Part shown: positions 107-23,188 of the stretch, piece by piece
How the letters are laid out: each line of letters starts with the position of its first letter
Position numbering within the stretch: position 1 is the first letter of the stretch
Source: a virus
IMG/VR virus record: IMGVR_UViG_3300024518_002607
Coordinates: 1 to 24,501 of that record
Reading direction: 5' to 3' (one strand)
Length of the DNA: 24,501 nt
Notes under the pieces: generated by a model
Seen by the model: only the letters and a program-made list of their open reading frames with translations
What the model was told of the DNA's origin: nothing
Database searches by the model: none
Made by a program: the position numbers and the translations under genes

Positions 107-694
107 TCAAGGGCACTCCATTTGTACTATTCGGTAATTTGTGCCCGAATCCCACACGGCGAGGCCGGCGTCGTCCTCGTCGCCCTCGAACACGTTGCCG
201 CTTGAGGCCGCCAGGTTGTGAACCGTGATCGCGGTCACGTTCGCCTCGCCCGGCCCGTATTGGTGCGTGATAGTCGCGGCCTTGCTCGCGTCGCCGGCAG
301 CCAGGTCGGCGTCAAGGGTGAACCGCACGAGCGATTTGAAGGGCACGGGCTCGAACAACCACACGCCGGCCGCGTCAGAATCGGCCGCCGATTGTGCGTG
401 ACGCCAGAGCCGCAACTTTTGACCCGAGGCGCACCCGCCGCCGAGCCAGTCGACGACGTTGAGGGCGGGAAAATTTACGGCGTCCGAGGCGACGAACGCG
501 CCCGCGCTCGAGATCCATTCGGTCGCCGTGCCCGTGCCGCCGGCCGCGATCGCGCCGTCGGCTTTCGCGATCTTAAACGAGACCGGCCCGACGCCGCGCC
601 GGCCGCCGCCGGGGCCGACCTGCGACTCGAGGGCGACGAGCTTGCGCTCGATCCGTTTCGCCTGCTCGGTCGTGAGGTAGTGTCGGCCGGTCAC
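107..694 (-). CDS. Hypothetical tail-region protein
   Basis: This 195-residue protein starts at GTG 694, which overlaps the stop of the upstream gene as GTGA (691-694), so translation is probably coupled. Its N-terminus holds a short charged helix (LTTEQAKRIERKLVALE), a glycine-rich linker near residues 28-35, and then a Ser/Ala/Gly-rich, beta-predicted body. I recognise no catalytic motif. Its position downstream of the tape measure and tail-tip genes, and the helix-plus-beta layout, suggest a virion-associated tail or fibre accessory. This is inferred from context only. Confidence 0.7.
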   Translation of the reverse strand: MTGRHYLTTEQAKRIERKLVALESQVGPGGGRRGVGPVSFKIAKADGAIAAGGTGTATEWISSAGAFVASDAVNFPALNVVDWLGGGCASGQKLRLWRHAQSAADSDAAGVWLFEPVPFKSLVRFTLDADLAAGDASKAATITHQYGPGEANVTAITVHNLAASSGNVFEGDEDDAGLAVWDSGTNYRIVQMECP

Positions 695-960
695 GGTATC
701 CTCGCCTCGATTCGCTTAAGTAGTTGTTCGGACACTTCCGCGTGCGTGTTGAGTTGCCCGAGCGTGTCACGAATCACGCGCAGGTCGCTCTCGATCTGAT
801 CGAGCCGCTTGGCGTGCGACTTGTTAATCAATCGCTGCGCGTCGGGCGACAGCTCGCCGCCCTCGCCGCCCAGGCGGGCACGCACGAGGGGCACGAGCAG
901 CTTGTCGAGCATCGTGTAAACGACGAGCACCAGGGCGGGCACGAGGCCGTCTTTGAACAT
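691..960 (-). CDS. Small membrane protein with coiled coil
   Basis: This 89-residue protein starts at ATG 960, 20 bases after the upstream stop. A GTG at 966 (VEMFKDG) is a possible alternative start. Residues about 5-25 (DGLVPALVLVVYTMLDKLLV) form one hydrophobic membrane segment. The rest, from about residue 40, is a charged helix with heptad character (DQIESDLRVIRDTLGQLN...EQLLKRIEARIP). One N-terminal helix plus a coiled coil resembles XhlA-like haemolysin/holin accessory proteins and small tail-module membrane proteins. It could be an accessory lysis component or a tail-linked anchor. No specific family is certain. Its stop overlaps the next GTG start. Confidence 0.7.
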   Translation of the reverse strand: MFKDGLVPALVLVVYTMLDKLLVPLVRARLGGEGGELSPDAQRLINKSHAKRLDQIESDLRVIRDTLGQLNTHAEVSEQLLKRIEARIP

Positions 961-980
961 TTCCACACGGGCACCCGTTT

Positions 981-4373: not shown

Positions 4374-4814
4374 TTACTTGATCACCCCTTTCCACGCCTT
4401 GAGGATCTCGGGCAGTTCGCGGCGCAGCGCCGGCGCCATGAACGGGCGTGCCGGGTACACGACGCGCATCGGCTTACGGCCGCCGATCTTGCGAACGAAT
4501 CGGCCGCCGTGTTCGTTCGCCTGCGCGGCGCCGGGGTTCGCGCTCGCTCGAACTTTCGGCCCGACGACGGCGACCTCGCGTTGAGAATCCCAGCCGACGA
4601 GCACCAGGCGCCGCAAGAACCCCAGGTGGGCCGCCGGCGGTTGACCAGGCTTTGACGCGGTGCGGCGCCGCTTCATCGACGCCTGCGCACTCTTGCGCAC
4701 GGCGAACCCGCCCCGAAACAGGGCGCGGCGGCGACCCTGCGCGGCCTTTTTTCGTACGGCCGACGCGTCGAACCGACTCGTCGCTCGCATCGTGATCGCG
4801 AGGGCCTTGCCCAT
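4374..4814 (-). CDS. HK97 gp10-like tail completion/minor tail protein
   Basis: This 146-residue basic protein starts at ATG 4814, overlapping the TAA of the frameshift product by one base (TAATG). The N-terminal half is Arg/Lys-rich helix (SAVRKKAAQGRRRALFRGGF). The C-terminal part ends in ARPFMAPALRRELPEILKAW, a pattern typical of HK97 gp10-like or phage virion-morphogenesis proteins, where 'RPFl.pAl......i' is conserved. Such proteins complete the head-tail interface or tail terminus. Here it lies between the chaperones and the tape measure, which is not the usual gp10 position, so the exact structural role is open. Confidence 0.65.
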   Translation of the reverse strand: MGKALAITMRATSRFDASAVRKKAAQGRRRALFRGGFAVRKSAQASMKRRRTASKPGQPPAAHLGFLRRLVLVGWDSQREVAVVGPKVRASANPGAAQANEHGGRFVRKIGGRKPMRVVYPARPFMAPALRRELPEILKAWKGVIK

Positions 4815-5574
4815 TATTCGCCTTTTTTCTTGAAATGTTTGCGCATCCCGACGAGCTGGTCGCCACTCATGCCGCGCTGACGGCGATCGCCTGGCCGAAT
4901 CAGGTGCAGGGGCATCAGGTCGACGGGGTTGATCGCTCTAGCATGTTTTGCCCGGTTCTGGTTCATAATCGCGGCCATTACTGAACTGGTTTGGCCCCAG
5001 GCGTGCCGCGCCGCGCCGTGATACCGGGCGAGCAGCTCGCGCAGGGTCAGGGGTCCGGGTTCGCACCCGACGACGCCCGCGAGTTCGTCGATCCATTGCC
5101 AAGAATCGACAGGCTTCGCGTGATCTCGTCGTTGGCCTTTTCGAGCGCCGCGTCGATCGCCGGGTCGAACTCGTCGAGACGGCTCTCGAGAATCCCCTGC
5201 AGGCGGTCGGTCGCCTGCTTGCTTTTTTGCAGCGCGGCCGCCAGGGCGGCTCGGCCGTACTGGCGGAAAAAATCGACCAGGCCCTCGATCAGCGCGTCGG
5301 CCGCCTGGTCGAGCGGCTTGTGATCGTCGTTGCCGCCCAGCGCGACGCCGAACGCCTCGTCGGTCACGCCGAGCTCGTCGGCTTGCGGTTTGCACAACAC
5401 GAACAGCACGTCGACCAGCGTCAACGGATCTTCGAGTAGTTTCTGCACGAGCACCTCGTCGAGGTCGTTGACCAGGTCGAGGCCGAGCATTGCCTTGATT
5501 CTCTTGAGCCCGGTTATCGTGACGGCGATCAGCCAGGTGCGGCCCTCGTTGTCGGTGAAGGTTCGCCCGCTCAT
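4814..5574 (-). CDS. Tail assembly chaperone, predicted -1 frameshift fusion (gpGT-like)
   Basis: The frame -1 relative to the shorter chaperone stays open past its stop and encodes convincing protein: DSWQWIDELAGVVGCEPGPL followed by TLRELLARYHGAARHAWGQT, ending HFKKKGE at 4814. It lacks a credible independent start before this conserved-looking stretch. A -1 shift near 5137-5143 would join the first 143 or so residues of the short form to this extension, giving about 253 residues. Siphoviruses commonly make G and G-T chaperones this way just upstream of the tape measure, and the order here fits. The shift site itself is not canonical, so the junction is inferred. Confidence 0.7.
5047..5574 (-). 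CDS. Tail assembly chaperone, short form (gpG-like)
   Basis: This 175-residue protein starts at ATG 5574 and overlaps the upstream stop as ATGA (5571-5574). It begins with a small beta unit (GRTFTDNEGRTWLIAVTIT) and continues as acidic helices (LDEVLVQKLLEDPLTLVDVLFVL, split by short loops). The final 30 or so residues (LGNGSTNSRASSGANPDP) are low-complexity, while the alternative -1 frame there is protein-like, as expected for a short frame that terminates beyond a shift site. It lies two genes before the tape measure and after the tail tube, matching the usual chaperone position. Confidence 0.8.
   Translation of the reverse strand: MSGRTFTDNEGRTWLIAVTITGLKRIKAMLGLDLVNDLDEVLVQKLLEDPLTLVDVLFVLCKPQADELGVTDEAFGVALGGNDDHKPLDQAADALIEGLVDFFRQYGRAALAAALQKSKQATDRLQGILESRLDEFDPAIDAALEKANDEITRSLSILGNGSTNSRASSGANPDP
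5137..5143 (-). other. Candidate -1 ribosomal frameshift heptamer
   Basis: On the minus strand the heptamer is C GAA AAG in the frame of the short chaperone. Slipping -1 gives CGA AAA: the A-site lysine tRNA re-pairs well, the glutamate tRNA less so, and the motif is therefore not a canonical XXXYYYZ. Immediately downstream GCCAACGAC can pair with GTCG and TTGGC (stem with a bulge, about 5133-5100), a possible stimulatory structure. An A6 run at 5223-5228 is a second, less likely site, because the -1 frame between the two sites looks like non-coding shadow. Confidence 0.35.
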
Positions 5575-18843: not shown

Positions 18844-19089
18844 TCAGTTCAAACGGAAACAGCCGAAACGGTCGCAGACAATACGCGAGCGGCGAAAGTC
18901 GAGCCGATCGCCGCGAAAGTCGAACCGATCGCGGCGACCGCGAAAGTCAGAACGCCCGCGAAAGTCAGAACGGCCGCGAAAGTCGCGGCGGCCTCGGAAG
19001 TCAGAACGGCCGCCGCACCCGGCGTCGACCGTGTCGACCACGACGAACGACGTCGCTACGGCGAGCAGAATAATAGATAGCATTTTCAT
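18844..19089 (-). CDS. Exported cationic DFRGR-repeat protein
   Basis: This 81-residue protein has ATG 19089 with GAGGTGATCCT directly upstream, one of the best ribosome binding sites in the window. Residues 1-23 (MKMLSIILLAVATSFVVVDT then VDA) are a signal peptide. The mature part has four near-perfect hexamers DFRGR[R/S] (residues 30-53), then degenerate copies (DFRGDRL, DFRRSR), and ends IVCDRFGCFRLN. I count 19 Arg and 9 Asp after the signal, net about +10, with three cysteines. Nothing is recognised. A small cationic exported protein beside a holin and a protease could act on the outer envelope during lysis, as disruptins do. That is speculation. Confidence 0.65.
   Translation of the reverse strand: MKMLSIILLAVATSFVVVDTVDAGCGGRSDFRGRRDFRGRSDFRGRSDFRGRRDRFDFRGDRLDFRRSRIVCDRFGCFRLN
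18931..19002 (-). repeat. Four tandem 18-bp repeats encoding DFRGR[R/S]
   Basis: Four 18-base units, differing by a few bases (core GACTTTCGCGG on the minus strand), encode the hexapeptide. Degenerate copies continue to about 18883. The DNA-level similarity suggests recent expansion by slippage. Confidence 0.8.
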
Positions 19090-19093
19090 AGGA

Positions 19094-19915
19094 TCACCTC
19101 ATTCTCAGGGTGTTGAGCTGGCGATAAAACGGCGCCCGCTCGTTGATCGACAGCGGTTCGCCTGGCCCGCCGTCAGGTGCTTGTGGCATTTGCTTGGCCG
19201 GGTCGGTGTGCACGATCCGCGCGAGCAGGCGTTCGACCTGGTCGGGGCCGATCGTGCGCGGGTCGGTCAGGTCGAGGCCGCCGGCCGGCTCGGCCGGGTC
19301 GCGGCCGCCGTGACACGCGGCGCAACGCGACGAGAGCACGGCGGCGAACGTGTCGGCGGTCGGCTCGTCATTTCCGGGGAAATAGTCGCGGCGCCCGAGG
19401 GCCGCGAGCTCGTCGTCGGTGAGGCGACGCGGGTCGCCGTCGGGCGTCACGATCACGCCCCAGGCGTTCGGCGTTTGCGGTCGCAGGGCGTCGACGACGG
19501 GCGCGAGAATACGCTCGGCCGCCTCGCCTTGCGCGAGAATCCGCGCGACGTCGGCCTGATTGCTGCCCTGCACGGCGAGCAGGCCGGCCGTCGAGAGCAC
19601 GAGCTCGCGAAAACCGCGTTGATCGCCTTCAACGATCGCCAGCAGGCGCCCGAGGTGCCCGTCAAGATCGACCGCGTAGTCGGCACGCACGTCGTCGAAC
19701 GTGTAGGCGGTCGCGCCCTGCGCGGCGATCGGCGAGGTCGTCACGTTGTTGAACACGAACACGTCGCGGTCACGGTCGACGATCCGCTCGACGTGCGAAC
19801 AGTCGTTGATAGAGCACCCGCAACGACGGCCGGCGGCCGCCGTTGGCGGGTGTAGCACACACGCGAGCAGCACAATCGCGACGGTCGAGCAGGTTCGCGG
19901 CGAGGGGCGGGGCAT
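19094..19915 (-). CDS. Exported mono-heme c-type cytochrome-like protein
   Basis: This 273-residue protein starts at ATG 19915 (MPRPSPRTCSTVAIVLLACV), four bases after the upstream stop. The frame is open further to 19960, but that extension overlaps the previous gene. Residues about 8-28 are a signal peptide. Near the mature N-terminus is a cysteine cluster (RRCGCSINDCSH). The heme c motif is CAACH (Cys198, Cys201, His202), and KQMPQAP (Met243) fits the distal ligand of a class I fold. The segment between residues 60 and 190 is helical and unrecognised. The protein likely acts in the periplasm. It is co-transcribed with a second CxxCH protein. Confidence 0.75.
   Translation of the reverse strand: MPRPSPRTCSTVAIVLLACVLHPPTAAAGRRCGCSINDCSHVERIVDRDRDVFVFNNVTTSPIAAQGATAYTFDDVRADYAVDLDGHLGRLLAIVEGDQRGFRELVLSTAGLLAVQGSNQADVARILAQGEAAERILAPVVDALRPQTPNAWGVIVTPDGDPRRLTDDELAALGRRDYFPGNDEPTADTFAAVLSSRCAACHGGRDPAEPAGGLDLTDPRTIGPDQVERLLARIVHTDPAKQMPQAPDGGPGEPLSINERAPFYRQLNTLRMR
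19370..19383. repeat. Palindrome ATTTCC-GG-GGAAAT, copy 2
   Basis: Identical to the copy at 9506-9519, but here it lies inside the cytochrome-like gene, where it encodes part of DYFPGND. Placement inside codons weakens an operator interpretation. Confidence 0.3.
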
Positions 19916-19919
19916 AACG

Positions 19920-21353
19920 TCAGGGCCTTTTGTCGGTGAGCTCGAGAACCAGGTCGGCAAATACTCGCTGGTAATCTAATCGGCGCACAGGCTGCCCTAG
20001 CATTAGCGCGCCGATGGTAAAATCGACGGGGCCGGCCCGTTTGTACGGCTCGAACAGGGCGGGCAGGTCATCCTCGGCGACCAGGTGCCCGCACTCGGCG
20101 GCCGCCTGGCGGGGGGTGACGAGCTGATAGAATTCGCGCCCGTAGAACAGGGCGACGCCGGCCGATAGCTCGGCGACCTCGAGGCCGCCCGTGCACCTGG
20201 CGACCGCCTCGGCGTAGTCGGCGCGACCCAGGTCGAGCCGTCGGCGGAAATCGCCAGAGTAGAGCCCGACCAGGCGGGCGACCGCCTGGTCGCGGTCGAG
20301 CGACTTGACGCCCTCGTCGTCGATCACGTTAAGGCGGCCGGCGAGCAGTCGCTTGACGTCGTTTGGGGCGTCGATCAGGCCGCCCGTCGGCCCGTGACAA
20401 CGCACGCACCCGATCGCCGGTTGTAGGCGGGCCGAAAACGGCGCGGGGACGCGGTGATCGCGGGCGACGTCGTCGGGCACACTATCGACCAGCGCACCCC
20501 GATCGTCGAACAGGGCGAACGCGTGCAGGCCGTTCGGCATTTCCGCGATCACCTCGCGGGCCGCGTCGTCGAACGCGAGCAGGTTGTAGAACGGGTGTTG
20601 ATCGACGTCGAGGTCGTCGTCGCGTATGTCGCGCGTAATCCACACGGCGCCCGTATTGTGCCGGCCGACGAGGCCCTGATAGCGGTCGACGCGGCGGGGC
20701 TTGCCGGTCACGCCCGAGAGCAGGATCGCGACCCGTTGATCGCCGTCGAGGCGTTTGGCGAGTTGCTCGTCGAGGCCGAATTGAGAGAAAAACGCGACCT
20801 GCGCACTCGCGCCGCCCGCCGGCGTGCGGGCAATTCCTCGCAACGCATAATAGACGCCGCCGTCGAGGGTCGTGAGGGCCTTCACGACGAACCAGTCGGC
20901 CCGATAGATCCCGCCCGACGAACCCGTGACCTCGAGCAGCTTGAGGGCGGCCGCCTGGTCGAGGTGCGGGCCGAGCAGGGCGGCGCCGACGCCGGGAACG
21001 TGATAGTACGGATCGAGGGCCGCGAGCGAGTCGAACACGGCGAGCACCCGTTCGCGGGCCTTGAGCTCGGGCACCAGGCGAGCGAAGTCGAGGCGCACCA
21101 GGCGGCCGCCGGCGGTGCGTTCGATCGGCACAATGTAGCCGGCCGTCGAGATCGCCGCGTTGACCGCGTAGTCGACGACGGCCGCCTCGAGTTCGTTCCA
21201 CCAGGGCGAGGGCGAGAGGTAGCGCACGTCGCGGGCGACCGTCGGGTCGAGTTGCAACGCGTCGGCGAGCGCCTCGACGACGAACTCGCGCGGCGTCGCG
21301 ACACGCTCGGCGGCGGGAAAGGCGAGCACGAGGGCGAGGGCGATCGGGATCAT
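19920..21353 (-). CDS. Large exported CxxCH (c-type heme) protein
   Basis: This 477-residue protein starts at ATG 21353 (MIPIALALVLAFPAAERVA), a signal peptide, eight bases after the metalloprotease stop. An open frame continues upstream to 22097 but overlaps the metalloprotease gene and is Arg/Pro shadow. The N-terminal 300 residues are an unrecognised alpha/beta region (FVVEALADALQLDPTVARDV, DQHPFYNLLAFDDAAREVIA). It then carries IGCVRCHGPTGGLI (Cys316, Cys319, His320), a c-type heme motif whose context, 'VPDDVARDH...LQPAIGCVRCHG', resembles planctomycete exported heme proteins. Two later cysteines (387, 421) are unpaired by motif. The predicted location is the periplasm. No reaction can be assigned. 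Confidence 0.75.
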   Translation of the reverse strand: MIPIALALVLAFPAAERVATPREFVVEALADALQLDPTVARDVRYLSPSPWWNELEAAVVDYAVNAAISTAGYIVPIERTAGGRLVRLDFARLVPELKARERVLAVFDSLAALDPYYHVPGVGAALLGPHLDQAAALKLLEVTGSSGGIYRADWFVVKALTTLDGGVYYALRGIARTPAGGASAQVAFFSQFGLDEQLAKRLDGDQRVAILLSGVTGKPRRVDRYQGLVGRHNTGAVWITRDIRDDDLDVDQHPFYNLLAFDDAAREVIAEMPNGLHAFALFDDRGALVDSVPDDVARDHRVPAPFSARLQPAIGCVRCHGPTGGLIDAPNDVKRLLAGRLNVIDDEGVKSLDRDQAVARLVGLYSGDFRRRLDLGRADYAEAVARCTGGLEVAELSAGVALFYGREFYQLVTPRQAAAECGHLVAEDDLPALFEPYKRAGPVDFTIGALMLGQPVRRLDYQRVFADLVLELTDKRP

Positions 21354-21361
21354 GTGCGGGA

Positions 21362-22159
21362 TCAGTTCGGCACGCGGGCGATCGTGCCCGCGAAACGGTT
21401 GCCCGCCTGGTCGTGCACCTCGACCGACAGGTCGGCGGCGGCGGGGTCGGGGTCGGGTTCGGCCGGGCGGCCGTAGCGTTTGACGGCGGCCTTCTTGTCG
21501 GGCGCGATCGGGTCGGGCGTCGTCGGGTCGTACGTCGGCGCCATCAGCGCGCGGCCGGGCAGGTGCGGTAATCCGATCGCGTGCCCGTCCTCGTGTTTTG
21601 CGACGATCAGTAGGTCGATCTGACCGGGTCGGGCGTCGCCGATCACGAACCGCTCGGCCGCGTCGTAGCGCTGCGCGAGCCGATCGTCGCGGCCCGAACA
21701 GGGGAGTTCTGACCAGGCGAGCGTTCCGTTCGGCCCGTCGATCCGCCCGGCCGCGTGCGTGATGTCGGCCGTGCGGTCGTTCGTCGTGTAGGCGAACCGC
21801 AAGTCGCACACGCTCGACCAGGCGGCCCAGGCGGCGACGTGCACGTCGACCAGGTCGGCCAGGCCGATGTTCGGCAACGCGTCGACGACGGCGAACGTCA
21901 GCTCGCGTTTTTTCCACTTGCAAATGCGCGAGCGTTGAGCGACTCGATCGGGGTGCGCGCAGAATCGCGGCGCGGTGAGCGTGCGGGCCGTTTGCGGGCC
22001 GACCCATCCGTCGGGCTTGAGCCCGTGCCAATTCTGGAAACGGCCGAGCAGCGTCACGAGGGCGCCGCCCTCGACGCGGGCGCCAGGGTCGAGCCATCCG
22101 GTGCGGGTGAGCTGCGCGACGATCTCGTCGACGGTCAAGGTATGTTCGGGCACACTCAT
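21362..22159 (-). CDS. PG-binding/matrixin-like zinc metalloprotease, candidate endolysin
   Basis: This 265-residue protein starts at ATG 22159, overlapping the holin stop as ATGA. Residues about 5-65 form a peptidoglycan-binding type 1 domain (LLGRFQNWHGLKPDGWVGPQ). Residues 64-71 read PRFCAHPD, close to the MMP cysteine-switch PRCGxPD (Cys67). The catalytic domain follows: LTFAVVDALPNIG, TADITHAAGRIDGPNGTLAW, then HEDGHAIGLPH (His189, Glu190, His193, His199), the metzincin zinc site, and the Met-turn ALMAPTY (Met206). There is no signal peptide, as expected for an enzyme released by a holin. Matrixins are proteases, so a cell-wall substrate is inferred from the PG-binding domain and from position. 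Confidence 0.85.
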   Translation of the reverse strand: MSVPEHTLTVDEIVAQLTRTGWLDPGARVEGGALVTLLGRFQNWHGLKPDGWVGPQTARTLTAPRFCAHPDRVAQRSRICKWKKRELTFAVVDALPNIGLADLVDVHVAAWAAWSSVCDLRFAYTTNDRTADITHAAGRIDGPNGTLAWSELPCSGRDDRLAQRYDAAERFVIGDARPGQIDLLIVAKHEDGHAIGLPHLPGRALMAPTYDPTTPDPIAPDKKAAVKRYGRPAEPDPDPAAADLSVEVHDQAGNRFAGTIARVPN

Positions 22160-22383
22160 AGCTGATCCGATCGCGGGTTCGGTTGCTCGCGTTTGAACAT
22201 AGCGACGAGGGCGAGGATCGCGGCGACAGCGTTCGCGGCGTGCGTGATCGCGTCGACGCCGAGGTCGAACTGCTTGCCGGTGACGCCGACGAGCATCGCG
22301 AGCGCCGCCAGGCCGGCGAACGTCGAGGGCTCGCGCAGTCGATCGAGCAGGGTGCGCCAGGTCGAGGTGAGTGCGTTGACCAT
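22156..22383 (-). CDS. Holin candidate
   Basis: This 75-residue protein has ATG 22383 with CGAAAGG seven bases upstream (22391-22397). It has a charged N-terminal helix, two hydrophobic segments (STFAGLAALAMLVGVTG at about 20-36 and ITHAANAVAAILALVAMF at about 46-63) separated by a short polar turn, and a basic/polar tail (KREQPNPRSDQL). Size, two-helix layout and charged tail fit class II-type holins, which accumulate in the inner membrane and open it at lysis. The immediate coupling to the metalloprotease gene supports this. Confidence 0.75.
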   Translation of the reverse strand: MVNALTSTWRTLLDRLREPSTFAGLAALAMLVGVTGKQFDLGVDAITHAANAVAAILALVAMFKREQPNPRSDQL

Positions 22384-22417: not shown

Positions 22418-23188
22418 TTAGTCTGCAGGGGTCGCCAGGCGGCGGCGGCGCATGACCTGGCGGCCGAGATCGCGGTGCGCCCGCGTGAGGATCTGCGATA
22501 CTCGCGCAGGGTCGACGCCGATGATCGCGGCGAGTTCGACTTGCGTGTGTCCGCCGAGCGAGTAGAGCACGACAAGCAGGCGATCCTCGAACCCGATCCC
22601 GCGTGACAAGTCGACGACGTCGGCGAATTGCTCGCGGCGCGTCATCGTGGGGCAGGGTCGTGCGGCGACCAGGTTGTCGAGATCGCCCTCGACGAACTCG
22701 ACGGTCGGCGAGCCGCCCCTCGCGGGCGCATCCTTGATCGCGTCGGCGCCGATCGAGGTCAGTAGCACCTCGTGCGACCAGCCGAGGCGGTCGATCACCT
22801 CGTCGTCGGTCGCCGGCCGCCCGAGTTCGATCATCAGTTCGACCTCGGCGCCCGCCCGGTCGGTCGAGTGAGTGCGCAGCGTGCGGCCGCGAGGGTCGGC
22901 CCGGCGTAGCTCGTCGAGCATCGCGCCGCGAACCCGCTTGACGGCGAACCTAATAAACGGCGTTTTTCTCTCGGGGTCGTATCGTTCGACAGCGCGCAGC
23001 AGGCCGAGGGCGCCCGCCTGCTCGAGGTCGTCGCGCGGGTGCGGCGTCTTGATCGCGTAGTGATCGGCCAGGCGGTCGACAATCGGCAGGAATCGCTCGA
23101 CCAGTTCGTTGCGCACATCCAGCGACGGCCGCGCCTGGTAATCGCGAAACTTTTGCCGGGGCGTTTGTAGCGCGAGAGGTATTGTCAC
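22418..23188 (-). CDS. Sigma-70 family RNA polymerase sigma factor
   Basis: This 256-residue protein starts at GTG 23188, overlapping the upstream stop as GTGA. Region 2 spans about 26-98: ELVERFLPIVDRLADHYAI, the core-binding and -10 segment DDLEQAGALGLLRAVERYDP, and FIRFAVKRVRGAMLDELRR. Region 3 follows (ELGRPATDDEVIDRLGW), then region 4 at about 185-250 with the HTH TQVELAAIIGVDPARVSQIL. The layout is that of FliA/SigF-type group 3 factors. In phage operons such factors can redirect RNA polymerase to late promoters. It precedes the lysis and head genes here, but I could not identify its target promoter. Confidence 0.9.
   Translation of the reverse strand: MTIPLALQTPRQKFRDYQARPSLDVRNELVERFLPIVDRLADHYAIKTPHPRDDLEQAGALGLLRAVERYDPERKTPFIRFAVKRVRGAMLDELRRADPRGRTLRTHSTDRAGAEVELMIELGRPATDDEVIDRLGWSHEVLLTSIGADAIKDAPARGGSPTVEFVEGDLDNLVAARPCPTMTRREQFADVVDLSRGIGFEDRLLVVLYSLGGHTQVELAAIIGVDPARVSQILTRAHRDLGRQVMRRRRLATPAD

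Follow-up and report, generated by a model that had tools for sequence, protein, structure and literature searches.

A proMMP-like matrixin beside a holin-like gene in tailed phages: a proposed lysis protease with a cysteine switch

Introduction

To our knowledge, every phage lysis enzyme described to date is a wall hydrolase, and a limited literature search returned no report of a matrixin serving as a phage endolysin. The planctomycete envelope was at first taken to consist of protein alone, until peptidoglycan was demonstrated in it. The closest functional precedent for the protein described here is the Listeria Mtz/Tim system, in which a metzincin of phage origin is linked to lysis genes and sensitizes cells to holin-lysin (PMC8235301). 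Among the bacterial MMPs, karilysin uses an aspartate as its switch (PMC6949598). Here, we analyze a phage gene that encodes a matrixin with a proMMP-type cysteine switch and overlaps a holin-like gene.

Results

The window, the whole stretch of DNA analyzed here, is a complete IMG/VR record that is linear and 24,501 bases long and is probably a fragment of a phage genome. Lambda-like late genes lie on its minus strand and encode a terminase, a portal, a ClpP-like head protease, a major head protein and a tape measure protein. The gene order runs from a sigma factor through the holin-like gene and the matrixin gene to, further on, the terminase, head and tail genes, so that the pair sits between the sigma-70-like factor and the terminase genes. 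The sigma-70-like gene (22418-23188) is directly upstream of the pair, in the position of a late regulator. After the tail genes, positions 691-963 (minus strand) encode a small protein that has one TM segment, ends in a charged C-terminus and matches no family. The features of the locus are as follows:

22418..23188, minus strand: sigma-70-like factor (Sigma70_r2, 2.2e-14; phrog_351, 9.8e-23)
22156..22383, minus strand: two-TM holin-like protein, 75 aa (by topology and position; PHROG 297 match weak, E 0.048)
21362..22159, minus strand: matrixin, proMMP-like, with a cysteine switch, proposed lysis protease, 265 aa (Pfam, PDB profile and AlphaFold model)
21977..22132, minus strand: prodomain with PG_binding_1 fold, residues 10-61 (Pfam PF01471)
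21947..21967, minus strand: cysteine-switch peptide RFCAHPD, residues 65-71, with Cys67 (aligned to PRCGVPD of proMMPs)
21515..21919, minus strand: matrixin catalytic domain, residues 81-215 (Pfam PF00413, Peptidase_M10)
21563..21595, minus strand: zinc motif HEDGHAIGLPH, residues 189-199 (H189, E190, H193 and H199 invariant in 18 sequences)
21536..21550, minus strand: Met-turn ALMAP, residues 204-208 (sequence and alignment)
19920..21353, minus strand: w477, exported protein, 477 aa, one CxxCH (CVRCH), starting 8 nt after the matrixin stop

The original prediction had assigned this protein the architecture of an MMP, with a PG-binding domain, PRFCAHPD, HEDGHAIGLPH and a Met-turn, and profile searches bore this out. 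PF00413 matched the 265-aa protein at E 5.7e-18 (65.7 bits against a curated cut-off of 24), PF01471 matched residues 10-61 over cut-off (2e-5), and each of the motifs was located. The features of a matrixin are present, namely HExxHxxGxxH, the Met-turn, PF00413 over cut-off and a PGBD prodomain ahead of the switch, while two features of vertebrate-type secreted MMPs, the signal peptide and the histidines of the structural zinc site, are absent. The protein has no hydrophobic N-terminus and thus no signal peptide, and no signal-peptide-like sequence was found among the family N-termini inspected. The catalytic domain of the 265-aa protein is that of a matrixin, and no match to the catalytic domains of known peptidoglycan hydrolases was obtained; its matches to PHROG endolysins are weak and fall on the PG_binding_1 domain. 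Given that this domain is the ordinary prodomain fold of MMPs, it does not by itself establish peptidoglycan binding.

The matrixin belongs to what is apparently a large and undescribed phage family, with at least about 100 loci in IMG/VR. Exact peptide patterns were too strict for finding relatives in IMG/VR; a degenerate scan for the zinc motif was used instead and recovered 17 full-length relatives, and a profile scan confirmed at least 80 loci (80 of 96 among the matches listed). A tblastn search of 50,697 GenBank phages gave no match to the window matrixin or to the version from the ~200-kb phages. The loci include both ~200-kb phages and small siphophage-like phages: one group is carried by large phages, many of them close to 200 kb, in which the order of the genes is mostly constant, and the remaining loci are spread over diverse contigs that range from about 10 to 110 kb, the majority measuring 20-60 kb. 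A full-length member was present in one of 392 Planctomycetota genomes, a Planctomycetaceae MAG, on a prophage-like contig that also carries a head protease. The cellular planctomycete matrixins that we retrieved match essentially over the catalytic domain alone and are without the switch motif. A cellular bacterial counterpart was observed in Nannocystis (Myxococcota; L203:9677-10996), a full-length, lipoprotein-like proMMP with the canonical switch VPRCGIPDY.

The cysteine corresponding to Cys67 is invariant in all 53 dereplicated members. The switch peptide in most of them reads RRCGLPDF, in agreement with the MMP consensus PRCGxPD, and the window version is RFCAHPD. On the evidence of these alignments, the resemblance of the phage proteins to MMPs is far beyond chance. 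Members with a shortened prodomain (L184, L131 and L267) keep the cysteine as well, and in L182 it is the sole cysteine of the protein. When the family profile was compared with the PDB, the best matches were human proMMPs and spanned the prodomain and the catalytic domain; those to the zymogens of proMMP-1, -9 and -3 had E values of 4e-34 to 3e-31 (4.2e-34 for proMMP-1), with cysteine aligned to cysteine. We considered that Cys67 could instead be a structural cysteine, disulfide-bonded for example to Cys118, since both are invariant in the first 18 sequences. Residue 118 is Ser in L123 and Thr in L182, however, the switch cysteine is still there in both and L182 has no second cysteine at all, so such a bond cannot account for the conservation of Cys67. 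The peptide also agrees with the switch consensus of MMPs and can be aligned to their switch; we regard a structural role as very unlikely and have dropped it. A different pair, C80 and C154, is either present or absent as a unit in 52 of the 53 members, which suggests a C80-C154 disulfide.

An AlphaFold model of the matrixin (mean pLDDT 84.7, pTM 0.74) was aligned by VIA-align, and the top 14 superpositions were all on proMMPs (Z 22.9-24.4), with 204-221 residues in one superposition. Structure prediction had been put forward as a means of refuting the switch, and since the fold obtained by prediction could be superposed on proMMP zymogens, this first test did not refute it; the linker between the switch and the catalytic domain (residues 71-80) is of low confidence in the model (block pLDDT 53). 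In the proposed switch, Cys67 would ligate the catalytic zinc and thereby keep the enzyme latent.

The neighboring gene had originally been described as an ATGA-coupled, two-helix holin. The ATGA overlap with the matrixin gene (22156-22159) and the two hydrophobic segments of the 75-aa protein were confirmed, but the holin assignment by profile was weak (phrog_297, E 0.048; no Pfam holin match), and we refer to the protein as holin-like based on topology and position. Holin-like genes adjoin the matrixin gene in several unrelated contigs. In L185, an r1t-type holin is clearly present beside it (Pfam 2.6e-16, PHROG 1.8e-14); in L138, a two-TM gene overlaps it by ATGA; in L123, a two-TM gene is 4 nt away; and in L267, the two overlap by ATGA with the matrixin first. 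Immediate adjacency of a two-TM gene was seen in 4 of 21 diverse contigs compared to 5 of 130 background genes (p 0.02), a modest enrichment that was not significant at wider distances in the same 21 contigs. This count supersedes a cruder neighbor statistic with greedy ORF calling, which was uninformative.

On its other side, the matrixin gene is followed by w477. In 11 of 22 diverse contigs, a homologue of w477 is found downstream, beside the matrixin or close to it, and a separate search with w477 added one new contig, L267, where the matrixin and a two-TM gene are also present, for a total of 12 diverse phages. The model of w477 is confident (pLDDT 79, pTM 0.83), and neither Foldseek (best E 1.3) nor sequence comparison turned up a relative in the PDB, so the protein possibly has a new fold. 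Domains resembling w477 also occur on chromosomes inside larger proteins (L260-L262, L264 and L265), where no phage context is visible; w477 alone is thus no phage marker. A second contig of the same Planctomycetaceae MAG (C402) carries a tailed-phage region with terminase, portal and head protein genes, and there the w477 partner gene follows a TM gene and, in place of a matrixin, a gene for a papain-type protease. The papain-type protease in this slot (L263:3257-4177) matches PDB 3ois at E 1.8e-51. The occurrence of a second protease fold at this position speaks for a need for proteolysis there.

Several other neighbors were observed. A 341-aa protein (L163:12031-13056 and homologues) is encoded in almost every large-phage locus, some 1.2 kb downstream from the matrixin gene; it has papain-like GDCVSW...H...NSWG motifs and no Pfam or PDB match, its likeness to papain being by motif only. 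The product of positions 19094-19960 of the window (minus strand) is exported, contains CAACH and matches planctomycete cytochrome C (PSCyt1) below threshold. Other small CxxCH proteins are found in L177, L131 and L182, which makes genes of c-type cytochrome appearance a recurrent feature of the family's phages. Near the matrixin, L181, L185, L186, L189, L200 and L201 carry a further conserved type of partner, mostly exported and 230-290 aa long, with a domain that looks Ig- or PKD-like by eye. Downstream of the matrixin, short exported proteins composed of R/Q/V- or RGRSDF-type repeats were seen repeatedly, as follows:

window 18844-19089, minus strand: short exported repeat protein
L138, near 4767-5300: short exported repeat protein
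L122, 12680-13072: short exported repeat protein

We also looked for a conventional endolysin. Six families were screened in the window record, itself a fragment, and 23 viral relatives: Amidase_2, Phage_lysozyme, SLT and NLPC_P60 had no matches, and neither M15_4 nor M23 had a match over cut-off. Sub-threshold matches were seen to M23 in five ~200-kb phages and to M15_4 in G019, the record of L185. The matrixin is the sole PG_binding_1 protein in the window and the 23 relatives. A single Amidase_2 match came from the bacterial MAG, on a different contig from the matrixin. As a control, Amidase_2 was present in 5 of 24 unrelated contigs.

Discussion

The architecture of the protein, its homology to proMMPs, its invariant cysteine and its gene linkage, together with a zymogen fold that is predicted and the lack of a match over cut-off to the six endolysin families in the relatives sampled, are the grounds for the reading that we favor. 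We consider it somewhat probable that the matrixin is the protease of the lysis module, a cytosolic zymogen of proMMP type that exits via the holin, cuts protein or peptide of the host envelope and takes over the task of an endolysin. Zinc ligation, latency, exit via the holin, activation, the substrate and lysis by the matrixin are steps that we infer, along the following lines. The matrixin would be synthesized as a zymogen and accumulate in the host cytosol, with the prodomain laying RFCAHPD over the active site and Cys67 ligating the catalytic zinc, which, in our proposal, would keep the enzyme harmless until lysis time. The matrixin has no signal peptide, unlike Listeria Mtz, and would therefore need a holin-type exit; the ATGA-coupled holin-like protein would open the cytoplasmic membrane and the zymogen would reach the periplasm. 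Activation would follow by autocleavage or thiol oxidation, the C80-C154 disulfide would form in the periplasm, and the activated enzyme would cleave protein or peptide linkages on which the cohesion of the host envelope depends, in place of an endolysin.

The matrixin could instead be an accessory lysis factor that just weakens a protein layer or the outer envelope, with an unrecognized endolysin as the main agent, on the pattern of Listeria Mtz/Tim and its sensitizing of cells to holin-lysin. Such a role has a precedent in a phage-origin metzincin near holin-lysin genes (PMC8235301). The screen took in six endolysin families, and the sub-threshold M23 matches in the five large phages would also fit. 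The host envelope bears on this question. Planctomycetes are the hosts of at least some matrixin phages, based on the one MAG contig pair and on the planctomycete-type cytochrome domains. Their walls have long been described as proteinaceous (PMC3422733), yet their sacculi contain lysozyme-sensitive peptidoglycan (PMC4432640), so that a protease alone may not lyse planctomycetes, and protein and peptide targets are both possible. Against an accessory role, none of the six families matched over cut-off in the window and its 23 relatives, where there is no second PG_binding_1 protein either, even though Amidase_2 alone turned up in about a fifth of the control contigs (5 of 24). The matrixin also lacks the signal peptide of Listeria Mtz. 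We judge an accessory role to be rather doubtful, though a serious contender.

If the target were the wall peptide itself, the protein could be a peptidoglycan endopeptidase with a matrixin fold that cuts stem or cross-bridge peptides while its PG-binding-like domain holds the wall. The PG_binding_1 match over cut-off and the weak PHROG endolysin matches on that domain would agree with this, but the fold is the usual one of MMP prodomains, and several members lose the domain and keep the switch peptide (L184 and L267). Matrixins, moreover, are known to cleave L-peptide bonds of proteins, and papain-type proteases take the slot of the matrixin; a wall endopeptidase is thus unlikely in our estimation. 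A cargo or entry protease, whether a moron, virion-associated or acting on neighboring cells, might lie in the late region by chance, and the accessory-looking, exported CxxCH cytochrome-like genes nearby would suit that origin. In the window, however, the matrixin gene is outside the tail module and beside the holin-like gene, with the sigma factor and terminase on either side, and the absence of a signal peptide and the recurrence of the holin linkage in other contigs make this origin quite improbable.

The lysis-protease reading may extend further. Some tailed phages, planctomycete phages among them, may lyse with general proteases, of proMMP zymogen type or papain type, that are latent in the reducing cytosol, released by a holin and directed at load-bearing protein; we offer this generalization tentatively and would not be surprised to see it fail. 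If the lysis role holds, a proMMP-type zymogen in the position of an endolysin would add a new catalytic class to the lysis enzymes, with a chemical safety catch built in, and the MMP cysteine switch would be at work in viruses of bacteria, timing lysis rather than tissue remodeling. The matrixin phages also make testable how far the planctomycete envelope depends on protein.

Compared with known systems, the phage protein shares with animal and plant proMMPs of the M10A group (proMMP-1, -3, -7 and -9) the prodomain fold, a PRCGxPD-type switch, the zinc helix and the Met-turn, and its zymogen arrangement, which is predicted, superposes on theirs, with profile E values down to 4e-34. It differs from them in lying beside a holin-like gene, in having neither a signal peptide nor a hemopexin domain, in replacing the histidines of the structural zinc site (LAH to LAW, DxHFD to Q..YD) and in carrying the additional C80/C154 cysteine pair. 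The bacterial MMPs, karilysin and the Nannocystis proMMP-like lipoprotein, have the matrixin catalytic domain in common with it but are exported cellular enzymes. Listeria Mtz has a Sec signal peptide, is accessory to a normal holin-lysin and is paired with a separate inhibitor-like lipoprotein, and the available parts of its description mention neither a PGBD prodomain nor a cysteine switch (PMC8235301). With phage endolysins that carry PG_binding_1, finally, the matrixin shares a cytosolic, signal-peptide-free form, a PGBD-type domain and a holin neighbor, whereas its catalytic domain has a general protease fold and not that of a lysozyme, amidase, transglycosylase, M15, M23 or NlpC enzyme.
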